In this document: in pieces, positions 1 to 8,106 of the stretch | Numbering within the stretch: the first letter of the stretch is position 1 | Layout: each line of letters opens with the position of its first letter | Assembly (NCBI GenBank): GCA_016188625.1 | Contig: JACPHL010000325.1 | Location: 1-8,106 of the forward strand | Direction of reading: 5' to 3' | Length of the DNA stretch: 8,106 bases | From: Candidatus Rokuibacteriota bacterium | Lineage (GTDB): Bacteria; Methylomirabilota; Methylomirabilia; Rokubacteriales; JACPHL01 | Notes under the pieces: model-generated | What the model was told of the DNA's origin: nothing | The model's input: only the letters and a program-made list of their open reading frames with translations | The model's database searches: none | Position numbers and translations under genes: made by a program

Positions 1-586
1 GGATTCGGAACCGCTCCCGGACCACGATGTCGGCCCGGCGGAAGGCCCCCTCCACATCCCCGATCGCGTGGCTGAAGTGGACCGCCACGTTGTCCGGCCA
101 CTCCGGGTGGACCCGCGGGGCCCCCGGCTCGAGCGCCGCCTCCGGGTCCACCACCGCCGGGAGGGGCTCGTACTCGACCCGGATCCGCTCCAGGCCGTCC
201 TCGGCCACGGCCCGGCTCTCCGCCACCGCCACGGCCACCGCCTCCCCCACGTAGTGGACCCGGTCCCTGGCGAGGGGGTACTGGATCCCGCTCCGGACGG
301 TGAACGTGATCCGGCTGACCAGGCCTGGGGGCGCTACCCCCGATTCCAGGACCGGCTTCATCCGGTCCGCGAGGTCGGCGTGGGTGAAGACGGCGAGCAC
401 GCCCGGGAGCGAGCGGGCCGCCCCGGCGTCGATCCCCCGGAGCCGCGCCGAGGCGTGCGGGCTCCGGAGCACGGCCGCGTGCGCCATCCCGGCGAGCTGG
501 ATGTCGTCCACGTACCGCCCGCGTCCGGTGAGGAGCCGCGGGTCCTCCTTCCGTCGGACGACCGCCCCGAAGTACTTGGCCCCCAT
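1..586 (-). CDS. Xanthine dehydrogenase/CoxL-family molybdopterin-binding subunit, N-terminal part (3' end outside window)
   Basis: Large catalytic subunit of a molybdenum hydroxylase, which hydroxylates aldehydes or N-heterocycles with water as oxygen source. I translated 195 residues by hand from the ATG at 586; the frame is open to the window edge. It opens with MGAKYFGAVVRRKED and RLLTGRGRYVDDI, the usual start of this family. The a/b-hammerhead domain follows, with AAVLRSPHASARL, PGVLAVFTHADL, HYVGEAVAVAVAES, RVEYEPLPAVVDPEAAL and, near the edge, GDVEGAFRRADIVV. The Mo-cofactor domains (residues beyond about 200) are not visible, so substrate cannot be judged. The ATG overlaps the stop of the upstream cysteine-synthase-like gene by one base (TGATG), which implies translational coupling. 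The FAD and 2Fe-2S subunits expected for a three-subunit enzyme are not in the window and may follow to the left. The family is secure; the substrate is unknown. Confidence 0.93.
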   Translation of the reverse strand, partial: MGAKYFGAVVRRKEDPRLLTGRGRYVDDIQLAGMAHAAVLRSPHASARLRGIDAGAARSLPGVLAVFTHADLADRMKPVLESGVAPPGLVSRITFTVRSGIQYPLARDRVHYVGEAVAVAVAESRAVAEDGLERIRVEYEPLPAVVDPEAALEPGAPRVHPEWPDNVAVHFSHAIGDVEGAFRRADIVVRERFRI

Positions 587-1649: not shown

Positions 1650-1860
1650 CCTGGGTAACTCGGAGGGGTTCCGCCCCCCCCGGGAGGCGCCGGCCCCTCG
1701 CTCCACACGCTCCGCGGCGCACCCGTCAGTGACTCGCCGGGCGGGGCCCCTCCTTCTTCGTTCTGAGCCCGTTCTCCGGCTTCCCCACCCGGCTCGCTCA
1801 CGACGGGGACCCGCGCCGCTCCGCTTAACGTTCCGCTCGGGGCCGACACCCCCCGGGGAG

Positions 1861-1936: not shown

Positions 1937-2719
1937 CTAGGCCTGACGGAACCATTCGCGGAGCGGCCGCACCCGCGCGCCGGCCCGCTCCAGGCCCTCG
2001 CGGACGGCCCGCACGATCTTGTGGGCGTCGGGGGTGTCGCCGTGGATGCAGATGGTCTGGACCTCGACGTCGATGAGCTGGCCGTCGAGGGTCCTCACCT
2101 TCCCCTCGAGGGCCATCAGCACCGCCTGCTCCACGGCCTCGGCCGGGTCCGAGATCAGCGCCCGGGGACCGATCTTCCGGGAGACGAGCTGCTTGTCGGC
2201 CGCGTACCGCCGATCGGCGAACCCCTCGCTCGCCACCCGCGCCCCGACTCCCTTGGCCTCGGCCTCGTACCGGGTCCCGGCCAGGGCGAAGAGGATCAGC
2301 GCCTTGTCCAGCTCCATGACCCCCTCGGCCGCGGCCCGCGCCAGCTCCGGGCTCCGCTCGTACATGGCGTACTGGATCCCGTGGGGCTTGACGTGCTGGA
2401 GCTCCGTCCCCGCGACCCGGGCGAAGGCCCAAAGCGCCCCGGTCTGGTAGCGGTGGTAGTCCTTCAGCTCCTGGGGGGAGACGTCGAGGGCCCGCCGCCC
2501 GAACCCCAGGAGGTCGGGGAGCCCCGGGTGGGCCCCCACCGCGACCCCGTGGCGCAGCGCCAGCTCGACGGTCCGGCGCATGACGTGCGGGTCGCCGCCG
2601 TGGAAGCCGCAGGCGATGTTGGCGGAGGTGATCCAGGGCATCACCTCCTCGTCATGGCCGAGGGTGTAGCGGCCGAAGCTCTCCCCCATATCGCAGTTGA
2701 TGTCGATCTCCTTGGCCAT
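1937..2719 (-). CDS. LamB/YcsF family protein (5-oxoprolinase subunit A-like)
   Basis: A 260-residue member of the LamB/YcsF family, whose characterised member PxpA is part of the ATP-dependent 5-oxoprolinase PxpABC that opens the lactam ring of pyroglutamate. The family signatures are all present: DINCDMGESFG (6-16), TSANIACGFHGGDP (31-44), GAHPGLPDLLGFGRR (62-76), VKPHG (110-114), EGFADRRY (165-172) and the C-terminal ICIHGDTPDAH (223-233). The usual KPHGALYN reads KPHGIQYAM here (111-119). A GGAGG ribosome site lies ten bases before the ATG. It is the last gene of its unit, 25 bases after ubiX. No pxpB or pxpC homologue is in the window, so ordinary 5-oxoproline recycling is not supported by context. 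Action on another lactam or cyclic amide made by the pathway is a guess. Confidence 0.93.
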   Translation of the reverse strand: MAKEIDINCDMGESFGRYTLGHDEEVMPWITSANIACGFHGGDPHVMRRTVELALRHGVAVGAHPGLPDLLGFGRRALDVSPQELKDYHRYQTGALWAFARVAGTELQHVKPHGIQYAMYERSPELARAAAEGVMELDKALILFALAGTRYEAEAKGVGARVASEGFADRRYAADKQLVSRKIGPRALISDPAEAVEQAVLMALEGKVRTLDGQLIDVEVQTICIHGDTPDAHKIVRAVREGLERAGARVRPLREWFRQA

Positions 2720-2744
2720 GGCGTGTTCGCCTCCTCCGTCCGGC

Positions 2745-3341
2745 TCATCCCCTCTCCAGGGACGTCGGCTTCCCCTGGGTCCCCTGCCACTCCTTCACCA
2801 GGTCGTGCTCGATCCCGAGGCGATCCAGGACGCGGCCGATGGTGTGGTCCACCAGCTCCTCGATGGTCCGGGGGTGGTGGTAGAAGGCCGGCATCGGCGG
2901 GAGGATCACCCCCCCGGCCTCGGCCAGGCGCAGCATCTGGCGGAGGTGCCCCGCGTGCAGCGGGGTCTCCCGGAACACCACCACCAGCCGGCGCCCCTCC
3001 TTGAGGGTGACGTCGGCGGCCCGGGTCAGGAGGTTGTCCGCGTAGCAGTTGGCGATGGCCGACAGCGTCTTGACGCTGCAGGGGGCCACGACCATTCCGG
3101 CGGTCTTGAACGAGCCCGAGGCGATGGCGGCGCCGATGTCGCGGATGTCGTAGACGTGGCGCGCCAGGGCCTCCACGTCGGCGATGGAGAACTCGGTCTC
3201 GTGCAGGATCGTCCGCTTGGCCGGATTGGTCAGGACGAGGTGGGTCTCGACCTCGGGCCGGCCCGCGAGGATCTGGAGCAGCCGGACGCCGTAGATGACC
3301 CCCGTCGAGCCCGAGATCCCCACCACCAGGCGCATGGTCAT
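2745..3341 (-). CDS. ubiX: UbiX family flavin prenyltransferase
   Basis: A 198-residue protein that should join a dimethylallyl group to FMN, making prenylated FMN, the cofactor of UbiD-type reversible decarboxylases. It shows the FMN-binding GISGSTGVIYG (8-18), VLTNPAKRTI (36-45), the long conserved block from MVVAPCSVKTLSAIANCYA (83-101) through NLLTRAADVTLKEGRRL (103-119), RETPL (124-128), MLRLAEAGGVILPPMPAFYH (136-155) and the C-terminal GRVLDRLGI (169-177). The residue before RETPL is Phe where Pro is usual. The start is either the ATG at 3341 (MTMRLVVG) or the one at 3335 (MRLVVG); a GAGGCGAGGGGG stretch fits both. It follows the flavin reductase by ten bases. No UbiD partner is visible. 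Its position next to a phenol-type hydroxylase suggests an aromatic-acid pathway more than ubiquinone synthesis. Confidence 0.95.
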   Translation of the reverse strand: MTMRLVVGISGSTGVIYGVRLLQILAGRPEVETHLVLTNPAKRTILHETEFSIADVEALARHVYDIRDIGAAIASGSFKTAGMVVAPCSVKTLSAIANCYADNLLTRAADVTLKEGRRLVVVFRETPLHAGHLRQMLRLAEAGGVILPPMPAFYHHPRTIEELVDHTIGRVLDRLGIEHDLVKEWQGTQGKPTSLERG

Positions 3342-3351
3342 CCCCCTCGCC

Positions 3352-3906
3352 TCAGTACCCGTGGCGGGCGAGCAGATCCCAGGCCGCCTCCGCCCGGCTC
3401 TCGGGCGAAGGGTCGAGCTGCCGGTAGGCGCCGCGGAAGTACGCCAGCGGCGCCCCGCCCCCGCCCTCGACGAGGATCCCCCGCACGCGCCCGACGACGA
3501 TGGCGTGCGTCCCGGCCGGGTGGGCGGCGTCCACCGCGCAGTCCAGGTAGCCCAGCGCCCCGGCGAGGGCCGCCGGCGCGCCGGGCTCGAGCCCGCGCTC
3601 GAGCCAGCGCGGGTCCAGGCGTTTGTCCTGGCCGGGGCGCGCGCAGTGCTCGGCGATGGCGCGCTGCCCCTCGCCCAGGATGTTGATCCCGAACCGGCCC
3701 CGTCGCTCGATCATCGCCCACGCGCGGCTCGATCGGTTGAGGCAGGCCAGGACCAGGGGCGGGGTGAGCGAGACCGAGCAGACCGCGTTCGCGGTCATCC
3801 CCACGGGCCGGTCCTCGTCGTCCGCGAAGCTGATGACGGTGACCCCGGTGGGGAGGGAGCCGAGGGCGCGCTTCATCGCGTCCGGCGTCGAGGTGAATCG
3901 TTGCAT
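3352..3906 (-). CDS. Flavin reductase family protein, probable partner of the HpaB-type monooxygenase
   Basis: A 184-residue NAD(P)H:flavin oxidoreductase of the HpaC/RutF family, expected to supply reduced flavin to the oxygenase encoded just upstream. Seen are the N-terminal LGSLPTGVTVISF (15-27), the flavin-binding core GMTANAVCSVSLTPPLVLACLN (36-57), FGINILGEGQ (72-81), GTHAIVVGRVRGI (132-144) and the closing APLAYFRGAYRQL (152-164). The start at 3906 matches the normal family N-terminus and has GGAG six bases upstream. The frame stays open far upstream through two neighbouring genes, but that part is only a GC-driven shadow. It lies 23 bases after the monooxygenase stop, as in other two-component systems. 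Whether it uses FAD or FMN, NADH or NADPH, cannot be read from the sequence. Confidence 0.95.
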   Translation of the reverse strand: MQRFTSTPDAMKRALGSLPTGVTVISFADDEDRPVGMTANAVCSVSLTPPLVLACLNRSSRAWAMIERRGRFGINILGEGQRAIAEHCARPGQDKRLDPRWLERGLEPGAPAALAGALGYLDCAVDAAHPAGTHAIVVGRVRGILVEGGGGAPLAYFRGAYRQLDPSPESRAEAAWDLLARHGY

Positions 3907-3929
3907 GACGCGCTCCGCTCCGGGCGATC

Positions 3930-5420
3930 CTACGCACGCACGGCGACCGCGGGGTCCGCCGCGGGCGGCAGGTCGTAGGAGGCCAGACACCGCTCCACCA
4001 CGGCCTTGGCCGCGGCGAAGTCGAAGGCCCGAAAGGCGCGGATCGACGTGGTCACCGAGCGGGCGCCGGCGTAGAAGAGCTCGTACTGCTGGTGGCGGCC
4101 CGCGAACTCCGAGCCGACGAGGTCCCAGGCCAGCTTGAAGAGCTTCGTGCGCTCCACCGAGGAGAGGCCCGGGGAGCGGATGAAGCGGTCGAGATCCCGG
4201 GCGACCTCGGGGTGCTGGTAGTCGCGGTATGACGAGGGGAGCTGGATGAGGCCGGCCCCGGCCAGCTCCCGGAGGTAGGTGAGGAGGGTCGTGTAGTGGG
4301 TCGCCTGGAGCCAGTTGTTGGCGTAGACGTAGGTCGGGTTCGGGTAGACGAACCCCCGGGGGTCGTGGACGCACTCGGCGTCGGCGGCGAGCACCAGCCC
4401 GCTGGCCATGGCGCAGTAGCTCGCCAGCTCCCCCAGCATGGTCTGGACCGGCGGCAGCTTGACGACCCCGTTGACCTCCGCGATCCGATACGCCAGCCCC
4501 GCGAGCAGCTCGGTCTTGCTCCAGAAGCGGACCTGCGCCTGGTGGTTGCCGATGATGTGCGCGGGCGTCTCGAAGAATTGGTCCCAGGTCAGGGCGATGT
4601 TGCGGTAGACGAACACCCGCTCCCAGGGGACGAAGACCTTGTCGAAGACCAGCAGCGCGTCGGTCTCGTCGAAGCGGGAGGAGAGCGGGTAGTCGAAGAC
4701 GCTGGGGACGCCCTCGGCGTAGGGCCGGCGCACGATCAGCCGGACGCCGGGAGCCGCGATGGGGACGGCCACCGAGATGGCGTAGTTCTCGTCGCCCGGG
4801 CGCAGGGGAAGGATGCAGCTCAGGAAGACCTCGTTGGAGAGGGCCGAGGCCGTCCCGAGCATCTGCGCCCCGCTCACGACGATCCCGCCGTCCCGCTCCT
4901 CCACCACCCCGGCGTAGAGGGTGGGGTCCTCCTGCTGGTGCGCGGGCTTGGAGCGGTCGATCTGGGGGTGGATGATGACGTAGCTGACGTAGAGATCGTG
5001 ATCGCGCACGTGCTCGTAGTAGCCGACCACGTGACGCCCGAACTCCTCGCCGGCCCGCGCGAAGACGTCGGGGCGGAGGGCGAACCCGACGAGGAATCCC
5101 GCGACGTGGTCCGGGGAGCGCCCCATCAGCCCGTAGGTGGCGTCCGCCCAGAGCTTGAGCGCTTCCCGACGCGCCGCGAGGTCCTCGGGGGTGCGCGGCA
5201 GGAGGAACGCCCGGTTGACCGGCTGGCCCGTCCTCGGCGAGGGGTAGGTCATGACCTCCCGATGCTCCGGGCCCGCCGCCATGTCGTAGAGGTGCGCCAC
5301 GGAGCGCACGGCGTTGCGGAAGGCCGGGTGCTCCGGCACATCCGCGACCCGCTCGCCGTGGACGAAGACGGCGCGGCCGTCCCTGAGGCTCTCGATGTAC
5401 TCCTTCCCGGTTCGGCTCAT
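3930..5420 (-). CDS. 4-hydroxyphenylacetate 3-hydroxylase (HpaB) family FADH2-dependent monooxygenase
   Basis: A 496-residue flavin-dependent oxygenase component; relatives such as E. coli HpaB (about 520 residues) ortho-hydroxylate phenols using reduced FAD and oxygen. The N-terminus (GKEYIESLRDGRAVFVHGER) and much of the rest align with HpaB as I recall it: GLMGRSPDH (97-105), IVVSGAQMLGTASALS (180-195), FDYPLSSRFDETDALLVFD (242-260), VPWERVFVYR (264-273), LIQLPSSYRD (391-400) and GSEFAGRHQQYEL (436-448). The Arg of the substrate pocket is kept (R101). However, the pocket Tyr (E. coli Y117) is His105 and the pocket His (E. coli H155) is Tyr147. It lacks the Fe-S cysteine pattern of 4-hydroxybutyryl-CoA dehydratases, as far as I can align. 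AGGAG precedes the ATG by four bases. The flavin reductase follows directly. The family is certain, but the substrate is probably not 4-hydroxyphenylacetate. Confidence 0.95.
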   Translation of the reverse strand: MSRTGKEYIESLRDGRAVFVHGERVADVPEHPAFRNAVRSVAHLYDMAAGPEHREVMTYPSPRTGQPVNRAFLLPRTPEDLAARREALKLWADATYGLMGRSPDHVAGFLVGFALRPDVFARAGEEFGRHVVGYYEHVRDHDLYVSYVIIHPQIDRSKPAHQQEDPTLYAGVVEERDGGIVVSGAQMLGTASALSNEVFLSCILPLRPGDENYAISVAVPIAAPGVRLIVRRPYAEGVPSVFDYPLSSRFDETDALLVFDKVFVPWERVFVYRNIALTWDQFFETPAHIIGNHQAQVRFWSKTELLAGLAYRIAEVNGVVKLPPVQTMLGELASYCAMASGLVLAADAECVHDPRGFVYPNPTYVYANNWLQATHYTTLLTYLRELAGAGLIQLPSSYRDYQHPEVARDLDRFIRSPGLSSVERTKLFKLAWDLVGSEFAGRHQQYELFYAGARSVTTSIRAFRAFDFAAAKAVVERCLASYDLPPAADPAVAVRA

Positions 5421-5444
5421 GGATCTCCTCTCGCGGTGCCCGCG

Positions 5445-6470
5445 CTAGCGGAGAACCCCGATCTGCGCCACCCGCTCGCCGCTCGCCACGGTGGGGAACG
5501 TCGTGATCCTGACGAGCGGGCCGGCGTGGGGCGCCCGGATGCGCTCCACGACCTCGCCGAAGACGTCGGTGACCGTCGCCAGGACCTGGCCCGCTGCCAC
5601 GTCGCCGCCCAGCTCGGCCTCGAGGTGGAGGAGGCCGCCCCGCTGGCAGCGCACCGCCGTCATGCGCTGGATCACGATCTGGCGCCCCAGGGCCTCGATC
5701 GGGCCGGGCAGCATCCCGAGGGCGCGCAGGAGGTTGGTGAGGCCGCGCACGCCGCGCTCCACCGGCTCCGCCTCGAGCCGGCCGCCCTCGCCCAGCTCCA
5801 CCCCGAGCCCCACGCCCCCCCTGGCCGTCAGGACCACGTGGGGGGTGCCGTCGCCGACGTACATCCCCTGCTCGGCGTCGAGGATGAAGTCGGCCCCGAA
5901 GACCCGGGCCAGCTCCTCGGCCCGGCGGGCGCCGGCGCCGAGGCGGCGCGGCGGCAGGAAGGCGAAGGGGGCATACCGGCCCCCGGTGGTGGGGGTGTGG
6001 ATGTCCAGGAGGACCTCGGCCCGGGCGATGACCTGCTCGTACAGGACGGCGGCCATCCGCTCCGTGGAGTTCCCCTCCGGGCTCCCCGGGAAACAGGCCC
6101 ACATATCCGCCGGCGATTGGTCGAGGGGGGACTTCAGGAGCAGCCCCACGGGGAAGCGGTGCTGGCCCCGGAGCCCGAGCGGGTTCTGGACCGGCACCGC
6201 CAGGATCGTGCCCGAGAGCGCCCGGGGATCGACGGCCCTCACGACCCGGGAGACGATCTCGATGCCGTTGATCTCGTCGCCGTGGATGGCGGCCCCCACG
6301 TAGAACGTCGGCCCCGGACGGGTCCCGGCGACGACCATGAGGGGGAACTCCACCCAGCTCCCGTCGGCGAGCTGGATGGCCCGGAGGGACCCCGTGTGGC
6401 GACTGCCGGGCCCGGCCACGATCGGCCCGATCCGGAGCGGACCCGCCGGGGGCGCGGCGCGGGCGGACAT
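5445..6470 (-). CDS. Succinylglutamate desuccinylase/aspartoacylase family (M14-like) hydrolase
   Basis: A 341-residue zinc hydrolase of the AstE/AspA family; members cleave the amide bond of N-acyl amino acids. The zinc set is visible as HGDE (H63, E66) and the later DIHTPT (H158), and the catalytic Glu is probably E225 in VELGEGG. FPGSPEGNSTERMA (127-140) matches the family block. The C-terminal third (about 265-341), with GGDVAAGQVLATVTDVFG and RAPHAGPLV, looks like a small biotinyl/lipoyl-type beta domain; this is the architecture of the ectoine-pathway deacetylase DoeB/EutE. The conserved substrate-binding Asn-Arg of the DLNRxFPG motif is missing: the site reads DMWACFPG (122-129). No other ectoine genes are present. 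It starts four bases after the M20 stop, with GAGG overlapping that stop. It is a good family call with an unknown substrate. Confidence 0.92.
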   Translation of the reverse strand: MSARAAPPAGPLRIGPIVAGPGSRHTGSLRAIQLADGSWVEFPLMVVAGTRPGPTFYVGAAIHGDEINGIEIVSRVVRAVDPRALSGTILAVPVQNPLGLRGQHRFPVGLLLKSPLDQSPADMWACFPGSPEGNSTERMAAVLYEQVIARAEVLLDIHTPTTGGRYAPFAFLPPRRLGAGARRAEELARVFGADFILDAEQGMYVGDGTPHVVLTARGGVGLGVELGEGGRLEAEPVERGVRGLTNLLRALGMLPGPIEALGRQIVIQRMTAVRCQRGGLLHLEAELGGDVAAGQVLATVTDVFGEVVERIRAPHAGPLVRITTFPTVASGERVAQIGVLR

Positions 6471-6474
6471 CGCC

Positions 6475-7746
6475 TCAGGCCCCTCCCGTCAGGAAGTCGG
6501 CCACCACGCCGGCGTGCACCCGGGCGGTGGCGAAGAGGTCGTCCAGGGTGACGTATTCGTTCGCGCCGCCCATTCCGTGGGCCGTCGGGCCGAAGACCAC
6601 CGTCGGGATCCCGGCCGCCCGGAAGTACCGGGCGTCGGTGGCGCCGAGGCGCACGACCGGCAGCGAGGCCCGACCCAGGGCCTCCGCGCTCGCGGCCTCG
6701 GTGACCCGCACGATCGGCGACCCGGGCGGGGTGTACGCCGGCTCGAAGACGGTGAGCGTCTCGATCTCGACCCCGGCGAGGCCCGCGGCGGCCAGGCGCC
6801 GGTCCAGCTCCTTCAGGATCGCCGAGGAGGTGAGGCCGACCGGCATCCGGATGTCCACCTCCGCGACCGCCTCCTCCGCCACCAGGTTGATGGCGGTCCC
6901 GCCCCTGAGCGTGCCGATGTTCACCGTGACCCGGTCGAGGATCTCCGGGGCCTCGGCCCCCCACGCGGCCGCGACGAGCGGCCGCTGGCGCTCGATCACC
7001 GGGCGCAGGTCCTCGGGGGTCGCCGGCACCAGATCCGCGAGGGAGCGGATCACCCGGAGGGCCTCGACCAGCCTCGCCGTGGCGCTGTCGCGGGTCCCGT
7101 AGGCGGCGTGCGAGGCGCCGCCCCGCGTCCGCGCCCGGAGCCAGCAGCCGCCCTTCTCGCCGATGCCGATCGCCCACGGGCCGCACTGGTCGCCGATCAG
7201 GCAGGCGTCGCCGCGCAGCTCCGGGGCGTGCTCCAAGAGCCACCGGGTCCCCCACGTCCCCCCGGACTCCTCGTCCGAGGAGTAGCTGAGGGTCAGCCGG
7301 CCCGGCAGCCGGAGGCGGAGGTCCACGAGCAGCCTCGCGAGGAACAGGGAGACCGCCAGGCCGGCCCGCATGTCCGAGGCGCCGCGCCCGTAGAGCCGCC
7401 CCTCCTCGACGACCCCCGCGAAGGGTGGATGCCGCCAGCCCTCCCCCGTCGCCGGGAACTCGTCGAGATGGGCGTTCAGCACCAGGTGCGGCCGGGCCTC
7501 GCCCAGCGAGGCGACGAGGTTCGGGCGGTCGGGCTTCGGGGCGTACTCGCGCACGGCAAGGCCGAGGGCCTCCAGGTACTCCCGCACGAAGCGGGCGATC
7601 GCGGTGGTGTCCCCGGGGGGGTTCTCGCTGGGGATCCGGACCGCGCGCGCGCAGAGCTCGACCAGCTCCTCTCGCCGCACCTCGAGCGCCTCGAGGAGGC
7701 GGGCCTTCAGGCGCCCGGGCGAGCCGATCTGGGCCCTCGCCGTCAT
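6475..7746 (-). CDS. M20 family metallohydrolase (ArgE/DapE/ACY1 type)
   Basis: A 423-residue cytoplasmic di-zinc amidohydrolase; relatives remove acyl groups from amino acids or hydrolyse carbamoyl and dipeptide bonds. The metal and catalytic set is complete: NAHLDEFP (H93, D95), GRGASDMRAG (D125), SDEESGG (E159 as general base, E160 as ligand), D186 in LIGDQCG, and H390 in GPTAHGMGGANEYV. The lid/dimerisation domain (about 190-310) carries GGASHAAYG with H213. There is no signal peptide. The ATG shares four bases (ATGA) with the stop of the upstream split-barrel gene, so it is probably translationally coupled; no strong ribosome site is seen. It is followed within four bases by a second amide hydrolase of an unrelated fold. 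Candidate roles are N-acyl, N-carbamoyl or ring-opened amide hydrolysis; sequence alone does not separate these. Confidence 0.94.
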   Translation of the reverse strand: MTARAQIGSPGRLKARLLEALEVRREELVELCARAVRIPSENPPGDTTAIARFVREYLEALGLAVREYAPKPDRPNLVASLGEARPHLVLNAHLDEFPATGEGWRHPPFAGVVEEGRLYGRGASDMRAGLAVSLFLARLLVDLRLRLPGRLTLSYSSDEESGGTWGTRWLLEHAPELRGDACLIGDQCGPWAIGIGEKGGCWLRARTRGGASHAAYGTRDSATARLVEALRVIRSLADLVPATPEDLRPVIERQRPLVAAAWGAEAPEILDRVTVNIGTLRGGTAINLVAEEAVAEVDIRMPVGLTSSAILKELDRRLAAAGLAGVEIETLTVFEPAYTPPGSPIVRVTEAASAEALGRASLPVVRLGATDARYFRAAGIPTVVFGPTAHGMGGANEYVTLDDLFATARVHAGVVADFLTGGA

Positions 7747-8106
7747 CTCGGGCTCACGGCGACCCCCCGCTCGGCGAGGGCCTTTCGCAGCCGGTTCCAG
7801 TAGGGGACCGATGCCTCGCGGTCGCGGCCGACCTCGAAGGTGATCCCGCCGGTCAGCCGGGCCTCCGGCTCCACGTCCTCCCGGGCCTGATCGACCAGGA
7901 CCGCTCGGACGGTCACGGCGAACCGCGCCAGCCCCGGAAAGCCGGCCATGGGATTCTCCACCTCCCGGACCTCCCCCTTGAGGTAGTACGCCATGCCCGC
8001 ATCGACGAGGCAGAGGGTCAGGCGCCCCGTCCGCCGCATGTGGCCCGAGGTACGGCTCTCCCGGTATGTGGCCACCGCGATGTCGCGGGCGCCCAGGGCC
8101 ACGACC
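7743..8106 (-). CDS. Probable PNPOx-like flavin-binding split-barrel protein, C-terminal part (5' end outside window)
   Basis: The last 120 residues of a protein whose start is beyond the right edge; the frame is open to the edge, and the GTG at 8102 is an internal valine codon rather than a convincing start. The sequence reads like the second half of a pyridoxamine-5'-phosphate-oxidase-like barrel: an ATYRESRTSGHMRRTGRLTL stretch, comparable to the family's pattern in which a residue-by-residue list of treated samples ends in an N..R.GR.xL.. strand, then MAYYLKGEVREV and a long FAVTVRAVLVD strand, ending WNRLRKAL. I recognise this by pattern only. Its ATGA overlap with the M20 gene places it in the same operon. 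It could bind flavin, F420 or heme and reduce a substrate, or simply be a cofactor-binding accessory; the N-terminal half is needed to decide. Confidence 0.55.
   Translation of the reverse strand, partial: VVALGARDIAVATYRESRTSGHMRRTGRLTLCLVDAGMAYYLKGEVREVENPMAGFPGLARFAVTVRAVLVDQAREDVEPEARLTGGITFEVGRDREASVPYWNRLRKALAERGVAVSPR

Follow-up and report, generated by a model that had tools for sequence, protein, structure and literature searches.

Among the closest described systems, the 4-hydroxyphenylacetate 3-monooxygenase HpaB/HpaC of T. thermophilus pairs an oxygenase of the HpaB_N plus HpaB fold family with a separate small flavin reductase (PDB 2YYJ/2YYK; reviewed in PMC6165268). DoeB, the N-acetyl-L-2,4-diaminobutyrate deacetylase of ectoine catabolism, has the AstE/AspA fold (PDB 6TWL), and the caprolactamase/hydantoinase-like family opens lactams with ATP (PMC8453981). 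Here, we analyzed an 8,106-nucleotide stretch (the window) that is one entire contig (G000:C144; JACPHL010000325.1) of a fragmented Candidatus Rokuibacteriota genome (2.6 Mb, 84% complete; assembly GCA_016188625.1). In it, a row of seven genes includes an M20 hydrolase, an AstE/AspA-family hydrolase, an HpaB-type oxygenase, and a flavin reductase. The core that is conserved in other genomes consists of the oxygenase, the AstE/AspA hydrolase, and a zinc hydrolase of either the M20 or the M28 family, joined in some cases by the flavin reductase. With modest confidence, we read these four genes of the window as a module for the catabolism of an acid that contains nitrogen and is probably heteroaromatic, or of a close N-acyl relative.

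The window oxygenase has the features of a group D two-component flavin monooxygenase, with HpaB_N and HpaB domains above cut-off and a separate Flavin_Reduct gene 23 bases downstream. Throughout, gene calls rest on open reading frames (ORFs) and codon usage, domain identities on Pfam, and subfamily scores on NCBIfam cut-offs. The fold is certain from the sequence alone. Similarity to the solved HpaBs amounted to ca. 290 bits, and the scores fell below both HpaB equivalog cut-offs (341.2 bits versus 480.2 for HpaB-1 and 316.8 bits versus 885.2 for HpaB-2). In the T. thermophilus enzyme, Arg100, Tyr104, and His142 make up what we take to be the phenol-binding triad. These positions are Arg-Tyr-His in three solved phenol hydroxylases, whereas the window oxygenase has R101-H105-Y147, with two of the three positions changed (Tyr104 to His and His142 to Tyr). 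To judge by its sequence, this enzyme is not an ordinary HpaB, and the triad change in its clade fits a non-phenolic substrate. Its neighbors differ as well, being C-N hydrolases and not homoprotocatechuate genes.

In a phylogenetic tree, 82 sequences with Arg-His-Tyr at the triad positions (R-H-Y), together with two odd Xenorhabdus proteins, made up one clade (n = 84; support 99), and classical HpaBs from the same Rokubacteria fell outside it. The window protein grouped with Rokubacteria (support 100), and its closest named relative also comes from a Candidatus Rokuibacteriota genome. It was 73 to 75% identical to the HpaBs of loci in three genomes of the order (G026, G034, and G054), versus 54% or less for all other HpaBs in the order. 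A flavin reductase of the same family as that of the window adjoins or lies near HpaB in 51 of the 82 R-H-Y loci.

The linkage of the four core genes exceeds what would be expected by chance. Close relatives of the AstE/AspA protein were present in only 3 of 59 related genomes of the order, the same three as above, each with the order HpaB, M20, AstE/AspA and with an M20 protein 48 to 49% identical to that of the window. Liv-type (branched-chain-amino-acid) transporter genes adjoin this trio in both contigs that are long enough. Among 297 Hyphomicrobiales genomes, four carry MarR, HpaB, AstE/AspA, flavin reductase, HyuA, HyuB, and M20 genes in one stretch, along with an amino-acid-type binding protein, a fused ABC permease/ATPase, and a Cro-cupin regulator. 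A wider alphaproteobacterial search added two loci with HpaB-MarR-AstE/AspA-M28, both of which have HyuA and molybdenum-hydroxylase genes in the vicinity. Hydantoinase/caprolactamase-like genes thus lie near six core loci, all of them alphaproteobacterial and rearranged in gene order relative to Rokubacteria. The closest named relatives of the Hyphomicrobiales HyuA and HyuB are the subunits of caprolactamase, CapA and CapB (PMC8453981, PMC6061476), but the scores (546 and 250 bits) are far below the cut-off of 1000, and the window holds neither gene. The exact seven-gene order, for which an earlier note on this DNA had proposed a search, was found in none of about 60 genomes of the order nor elsewhere; what is conserved is the core, in three other Rokubacteria and six alphaproteobacteria. 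The linked transporters and regulators that the same note had thought worth seeking do occur, the former being of the Liv type in Rokubacteria and of the amino-acid ABC type in Hyphomicrobiales and the latter MarR proteins in the alphaproteobacterial core loci and Cro-cupin proteins in those of Hyphomicrobiales.

The AstE/AspA subfamily (n = 10) forms a single clade (support 96/97), and all 10 members found adjoin an HpaB of the R-H-Y clade. Lower-scoring AstE/AspA genes had no HpaB match in the flanking DNA examined, several stretches of which were only 2 to 4 kb long. At an E value of 1e-80, no subfamily member appeared in 349 Burkholderiales or 345 Actinomycetes genomes, a weak absence with six candidates scored per genome. 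The two partners have different affinities in the trees: the window HpaB groups with Rokubacteria but the AstE/AspA protein with those of the alphaproteobacterial loci L159 and L160 (support 95/92). Despite this reshuffling, the two genes have stayed side by side, an argument for a functional link between them.

Both hydrolases retain their likely catalytic residues. In the AstE/AspA protein, H63, E66, H158, and E228 are invariant across eight sequences and reproduce the superfamily pattern (His-x-x-Glu, His, and a catalytic Glu), and the zinc-binding and catalytic residues are shared with DoeB. However, its score of 81.4 bits is far from the DoeB equivalog cut-off (402.7), and no other ectoine gene is present in the window. 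The M20 protein has the domain and the two-zinc ligand positions of M20 peptidases/deacylases; its candidate metal ligands (H93, D125, E160, D186, and H390) were assigned via the family pattern, with one Glu replaced by Asp.

Other members of the R-H-Y clade adjoin cupin and DUF2848 genes, nitrilase-type or amidase hydrolases, and transporters. Clusters of flavin reductase, HpaB (R-H-Y), cupin, amidase or nitrilase-type hydrolase, and DUF2848 are widespread in proteobacteria, actinobacteria, and bacilli (L115, L116, L117, L118, and L040-L075), with amidases and Liv-type transporters in the proteobacterial version and nitrilase-type hydrolases in that of actinobacteria and bacilli. They have in common with the window the R-H-Y oxygenase, the reductase, and a C-N hydrolase, but they combine an amidase or nitrilase-type hydrolase with DUF2848 and a cupin where the window has M20 and AstE/AspA. 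We know of no function for DUF2848, and no paper mentioning it was found in the open-licence literature, nor was any that links an HpaB-type oxygenase with a hydantoinase or with N-heterocycles in one cluster. A paper on skatole oxygenase was considered as a parallel and dropped, as it concerns group E enzymes. In the same literature, whose coverage is incomplete, we found no characterized pathway with this gene set, in agreement with the earlier note.

From these data, we infer a substrate class, an order of steps, and co-transcription for the module. The flavin reductase would supply FADH2 to the oxygenase, which would hydroxylate the ring and convert the heteroaromatic into a lactam or another hydrolysable compound. 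This lactam, or its tautomer, would then be opened by hydrolysis, in the Hyphomicrobiales version probably via the caprolactamase/hydantoinase-like pair, and the AstE/AspA and M20 zinc hydrolases would cut C-N bonds (amide, N-acyl, or N-carbamoyl) to give an amino acid or ammonia. The earlier note had suggested that an aromatic compound containing nitrogen is hydroxylated and its C-N bonds hydrolysed, and both the conserved association of HpaB with C-N hydrolases and the altered triad support this. One lead to the substrate is the pyrrole-2-carboxylate monooxygenase of Rhodococcus and Arthrobacter, a two-component flavin enzyme that acts on an N-heteroaromatic acid. Hydroxylation of pyrrole-2-carboxylate at position 5 would give a lactam one hydration away from cyclic 2-oxoglutaramate, which is hydrolysed by nitrilase-type omega-amidases, and we regard this acid as a candidate. 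Histidine/imidazole and indole routes were considered as well. Both genera carry R-H-Y clade loci; no sequence of the monooxygenase was found in the open-licence literature for comparison. More tentatively, the whole R-H-Y clade may consist of widespread, unrecognized two-component flavin monooxygenases that hydroxylate N-heteroaromatic acids and not phenols, and the HpaB-AstE/AspA-M20/M28 module with its hydantoinase/caprolactamase-like partner may be a new catabolic route for such an acid.

The neighborhoods of the clade add to the support for this interpretation. C-N hydrolase genes (counting nitrilase-type, amidase, M20, M28, AstE/AspA, HyuA/B, PxpA, and DUF2848 genes, a set chosen after the neighborhoods had been seen) lie within 8 kb in 52 of 82 R-H-Y loci versus 1 of 21 classical HpaB loci (Fisher p 7e-7). 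These 21 control loci are, however, all from Rokubacteria and some are short; the comparison is therefore confounded by taxon, the p value is not to be read literally, and the qualitative pattern that spans several phyla is the better evidence. Several points weigh against the interpretation. Within the Rokubacteria R-H-Y loci alone, only 4 of 20 have a member of the set, and 11 have a PF01979 amidohydrolase instead. No flavin reductase was seen in the DNA examined around the three Rokubacteria loci closest to that of the window. The substrate ranges of M20 and AstE/AspA enzymes are wide, and no clade member found here has a known substrate or activity. Finally, a LigB-type ring-cleavage dioxygenase gene lies ca. 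4.7 kb beyond HpaB in the core locus L077, which would fit a phenolic route. Positions 16732 to 17792 of that locus encode this dioxygenase together with a small LigA-like protein, both running divergently from the Liv and HpaB genes.

The alternative that survives best reverses the order of steps, with M20 and AstE/AspA first removing N-acyl or peptide-like moieties from a conjugate taken up by the cell, after which HpaB would hydroxylate the aromatic amine or amino acid thus released. Both hydrolase families are deacylases, the closest solved relatives of the two window proteins are deacylases and desuccinylases, and the Liv-type or amino-acid-type transporters of the core loci would suit such an import. 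Nevertheless, we think this order unlikely, since most core loci have no ring-cleavage dioxygenase, leaving the hydroxylated product with no evident onward route, and since the hydantoinase/caprolactamase-like genes near six of them argue for ring opening after oxygenation.

Less probable again is the scheme of the earlier note, in which hydroxylation, UbiX-dependent decarboxylation, PxpA-dependent lactam opening, and amide hydrolysis form one seven-gene unit; probably only four or five of the genes belong to one pathway. The co-orientation of all seven on the minus strand and the tight junctions (-4, 4, 24, 23, 10, and 25 bases), which that note had described correctly and which ORFs, codon usage, and Pfam confirmed, speak for a single unit, as does the presence of ATP-dependent lactamase-like genes beside the core elsewhere. 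On the other hand, UbiX and PxpA are both missing from the nine other core loci. UbiX produces prenyl-FMN; it does not itself decarboxylate, and we rejected the reading of it as a decarboxylase. The window protein is a flavin prenyltransferase by its NCBIfam scores (273.5 bits versus a cut-off of 188, and 247.6 versus 108.9), but no UbiD gene is present in the window, and three UbiD matches lie elsewhere in the genome. It is also a duplicate: positions 2797 to 3341 match G000:C134:8992-9536 with 87% DNA identity, and the paralogue there (82% protein identity) has two UbiD genes directly before it, along with a GntR-type regulator. The proposed decarboxylation is therefore not supported, and UbiX is probably co-located without being a core part of the module. 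A link between UbiX and HpaB is possible, given that UbiX occurs in three loci of the wider clade, those of Bosea and Ancylobacter (at most 8 kb from HpaB and accompanied by UbiD) and that of Methylobacterium. Locus L161, from a Bosea genome, has two more distant AstE/AspA genes, with an oligopeptide-type transporter and an amidohydrolase, directly adjoining UbiX and UbiD.

Nearly all genomes of the order carry PxpA (54 of 59). In five relatives (L253, L254, L256, L257, and L258), its direct or near neighbor is a CysK-like gene whose product is 65 to 70% identical to that of the window, and the two form a conserved block; three of these relatives have genes for CoA-transferase subunits and a luciferase-like oxidoreductase in between. 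In other relatives, PxpA sits with KipI/KipA-like genes. In the window, a CysK-like gene follows PxpA on the same strand after a 301-base gap. Since the pairing is found in five relatives as well as here, PxpA is more likely part of the downstream genes, and it probably belongs with the CysK block and not with the core; lactam opening by this PxpA is not supported. One Nocardia locus does have a PxpA gene ca. 9 kb from HpaB. Neither PxpB nor PxpC, the partners of PxpA in the 5-oxoprolinase PxpABC, is in the window, the remainder of the genome not having been searched for them.

The weakest alternative, an ordinary phenolic pathway in which HpaB acts as a phenol hydroxylase of the 4-hydroxyphenylacetate kind, meta cleavage comes next, and the hydrolases are bystanders, draws on the HpaB fold, the two-component layout, and LigB genes (that of L077 and another within 8 kb at locus L127), but it is rendered very doubtful by the subthreshold equivalog scores, the altered triad, the lack of homoprotocatechuate genes in the window, and the invariable link between AstE/AspA and HpaB.

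The features of the window are collected in Table 1. Pfam identity is strong for six of the seven genes at 1937 to 8106, and a purine-rich, Shine-Dalgarno-like stretch precedes most of their starts. Scans of the window for promoters and terminators gave nothing exceeding chance; no sigma-70-like promoter was found, a result that is uninformative at this G+C content.

Table 1. Annotated features of the 8,106-nucleotide window
Feature	Coordinates	Strand	Evidence
PNPOx-like split-barrel protein, 3' part only, 120 aa	7743..8106	-	PNPOx_N E 0.021, below cut-off
M20 zinc hydrolase, ArgE/DapE-like, 423 aa	6475..7746	-	Peptidase_M20 E 7e-32
AstE/AspA-family (DoeB-like) zinc amidohydrolase, 341 aa	5445..6470	-	AstE_AspA_cat E 3.5e-27
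HpaB-type (group D) flavin-dependent oxygenase, 496 aa	3930..5420	-	HpaB_N E 1.6e-102, HpaB E 2.3e-53
NAD(P)H:flavin reductase, HpaC/HsaB type, 184 aa	3352..3906	-	Flavin_Reduct E 1.1e-39
UbiX flavin prenyltransferase, 198 aa, recent paralogue	2745..3341	-	above NCBIfam UbiX cut-offs
LamB/YcsF (PxpA-like) protein, 260 aa	1937..2719	-	LamB_YcsF E 8.5e-94; PxpA subfamily above cut-off
Interspersed repeat, ~180 bases, long imperfect palindrome, between PxpA and CysK	1676..1854	.	at least 40 genome copies
Cysteine-synthase-like (CysK-like) PLP enzyme, 349 aa	586..1635	-	PALP E 8e-76
Molybdenum-hydroxylase (xanthine dehydrogenase / CO dehydrogenase type) large subunit, N-terminal part, cut by contig end	2..586	-	

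The PNPOx-like gene has lost its 5' end at the contig end. Its full-length homologues have 157 to 160 aa (PNPOx_N E 4e-7 to 3e-4), so that ca. 40 residues are missing here, and no such gene was seen adjoining the conserved core in relatives. The interspersed repeat lies within the gap between PxpA and CysK. Its copies across the genome (80 to 97% identity) are a lower bound, as 40 of 678 first-look candidates were scored. It has a near-invariant core and folds as one long hairpin (-110.8 kcal/mol for the minus strand as RNA), and it had no match in the sequences examined from other genomes or in Rfam. The molybdenum-hydroxylase gene overlaps the CysK-like gene by 1 base on the same strand; the fragment alone had no Pfam match but was 41% identical to a 781-aa protein with Ald_Xan_dh_C and MoCoBD domains. 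Window positions 1 to 377 recur as a 97%-identical copy (377 bases) at the end of another contig (G000:C195:6799-7175), which reflects either an assembly break at a repeat or a recent duplication.

The gene row looks like an undescribed pathway for the degradation of an N-containing aromatic acid, with a core that recurs in unrelated bacteria. HpaBs of the R-H-Y clade risk being named automatically as 4-hydroxyphenylacetate hydroxylases. Because the triad change is conserved and C-N hydrolase neighbors are recurrent, our analysis suggests that many such names assign the wrong class of substrate, and that this applies alike to Rokubacteria, Alphaproteobacteria, Actinomycetota, and Bacillota. 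The module provides a defined, cloneable set of four to six genes with which to find the true substrate, and it bears on the diet of the poorly cultured Rokubacteria of soil.

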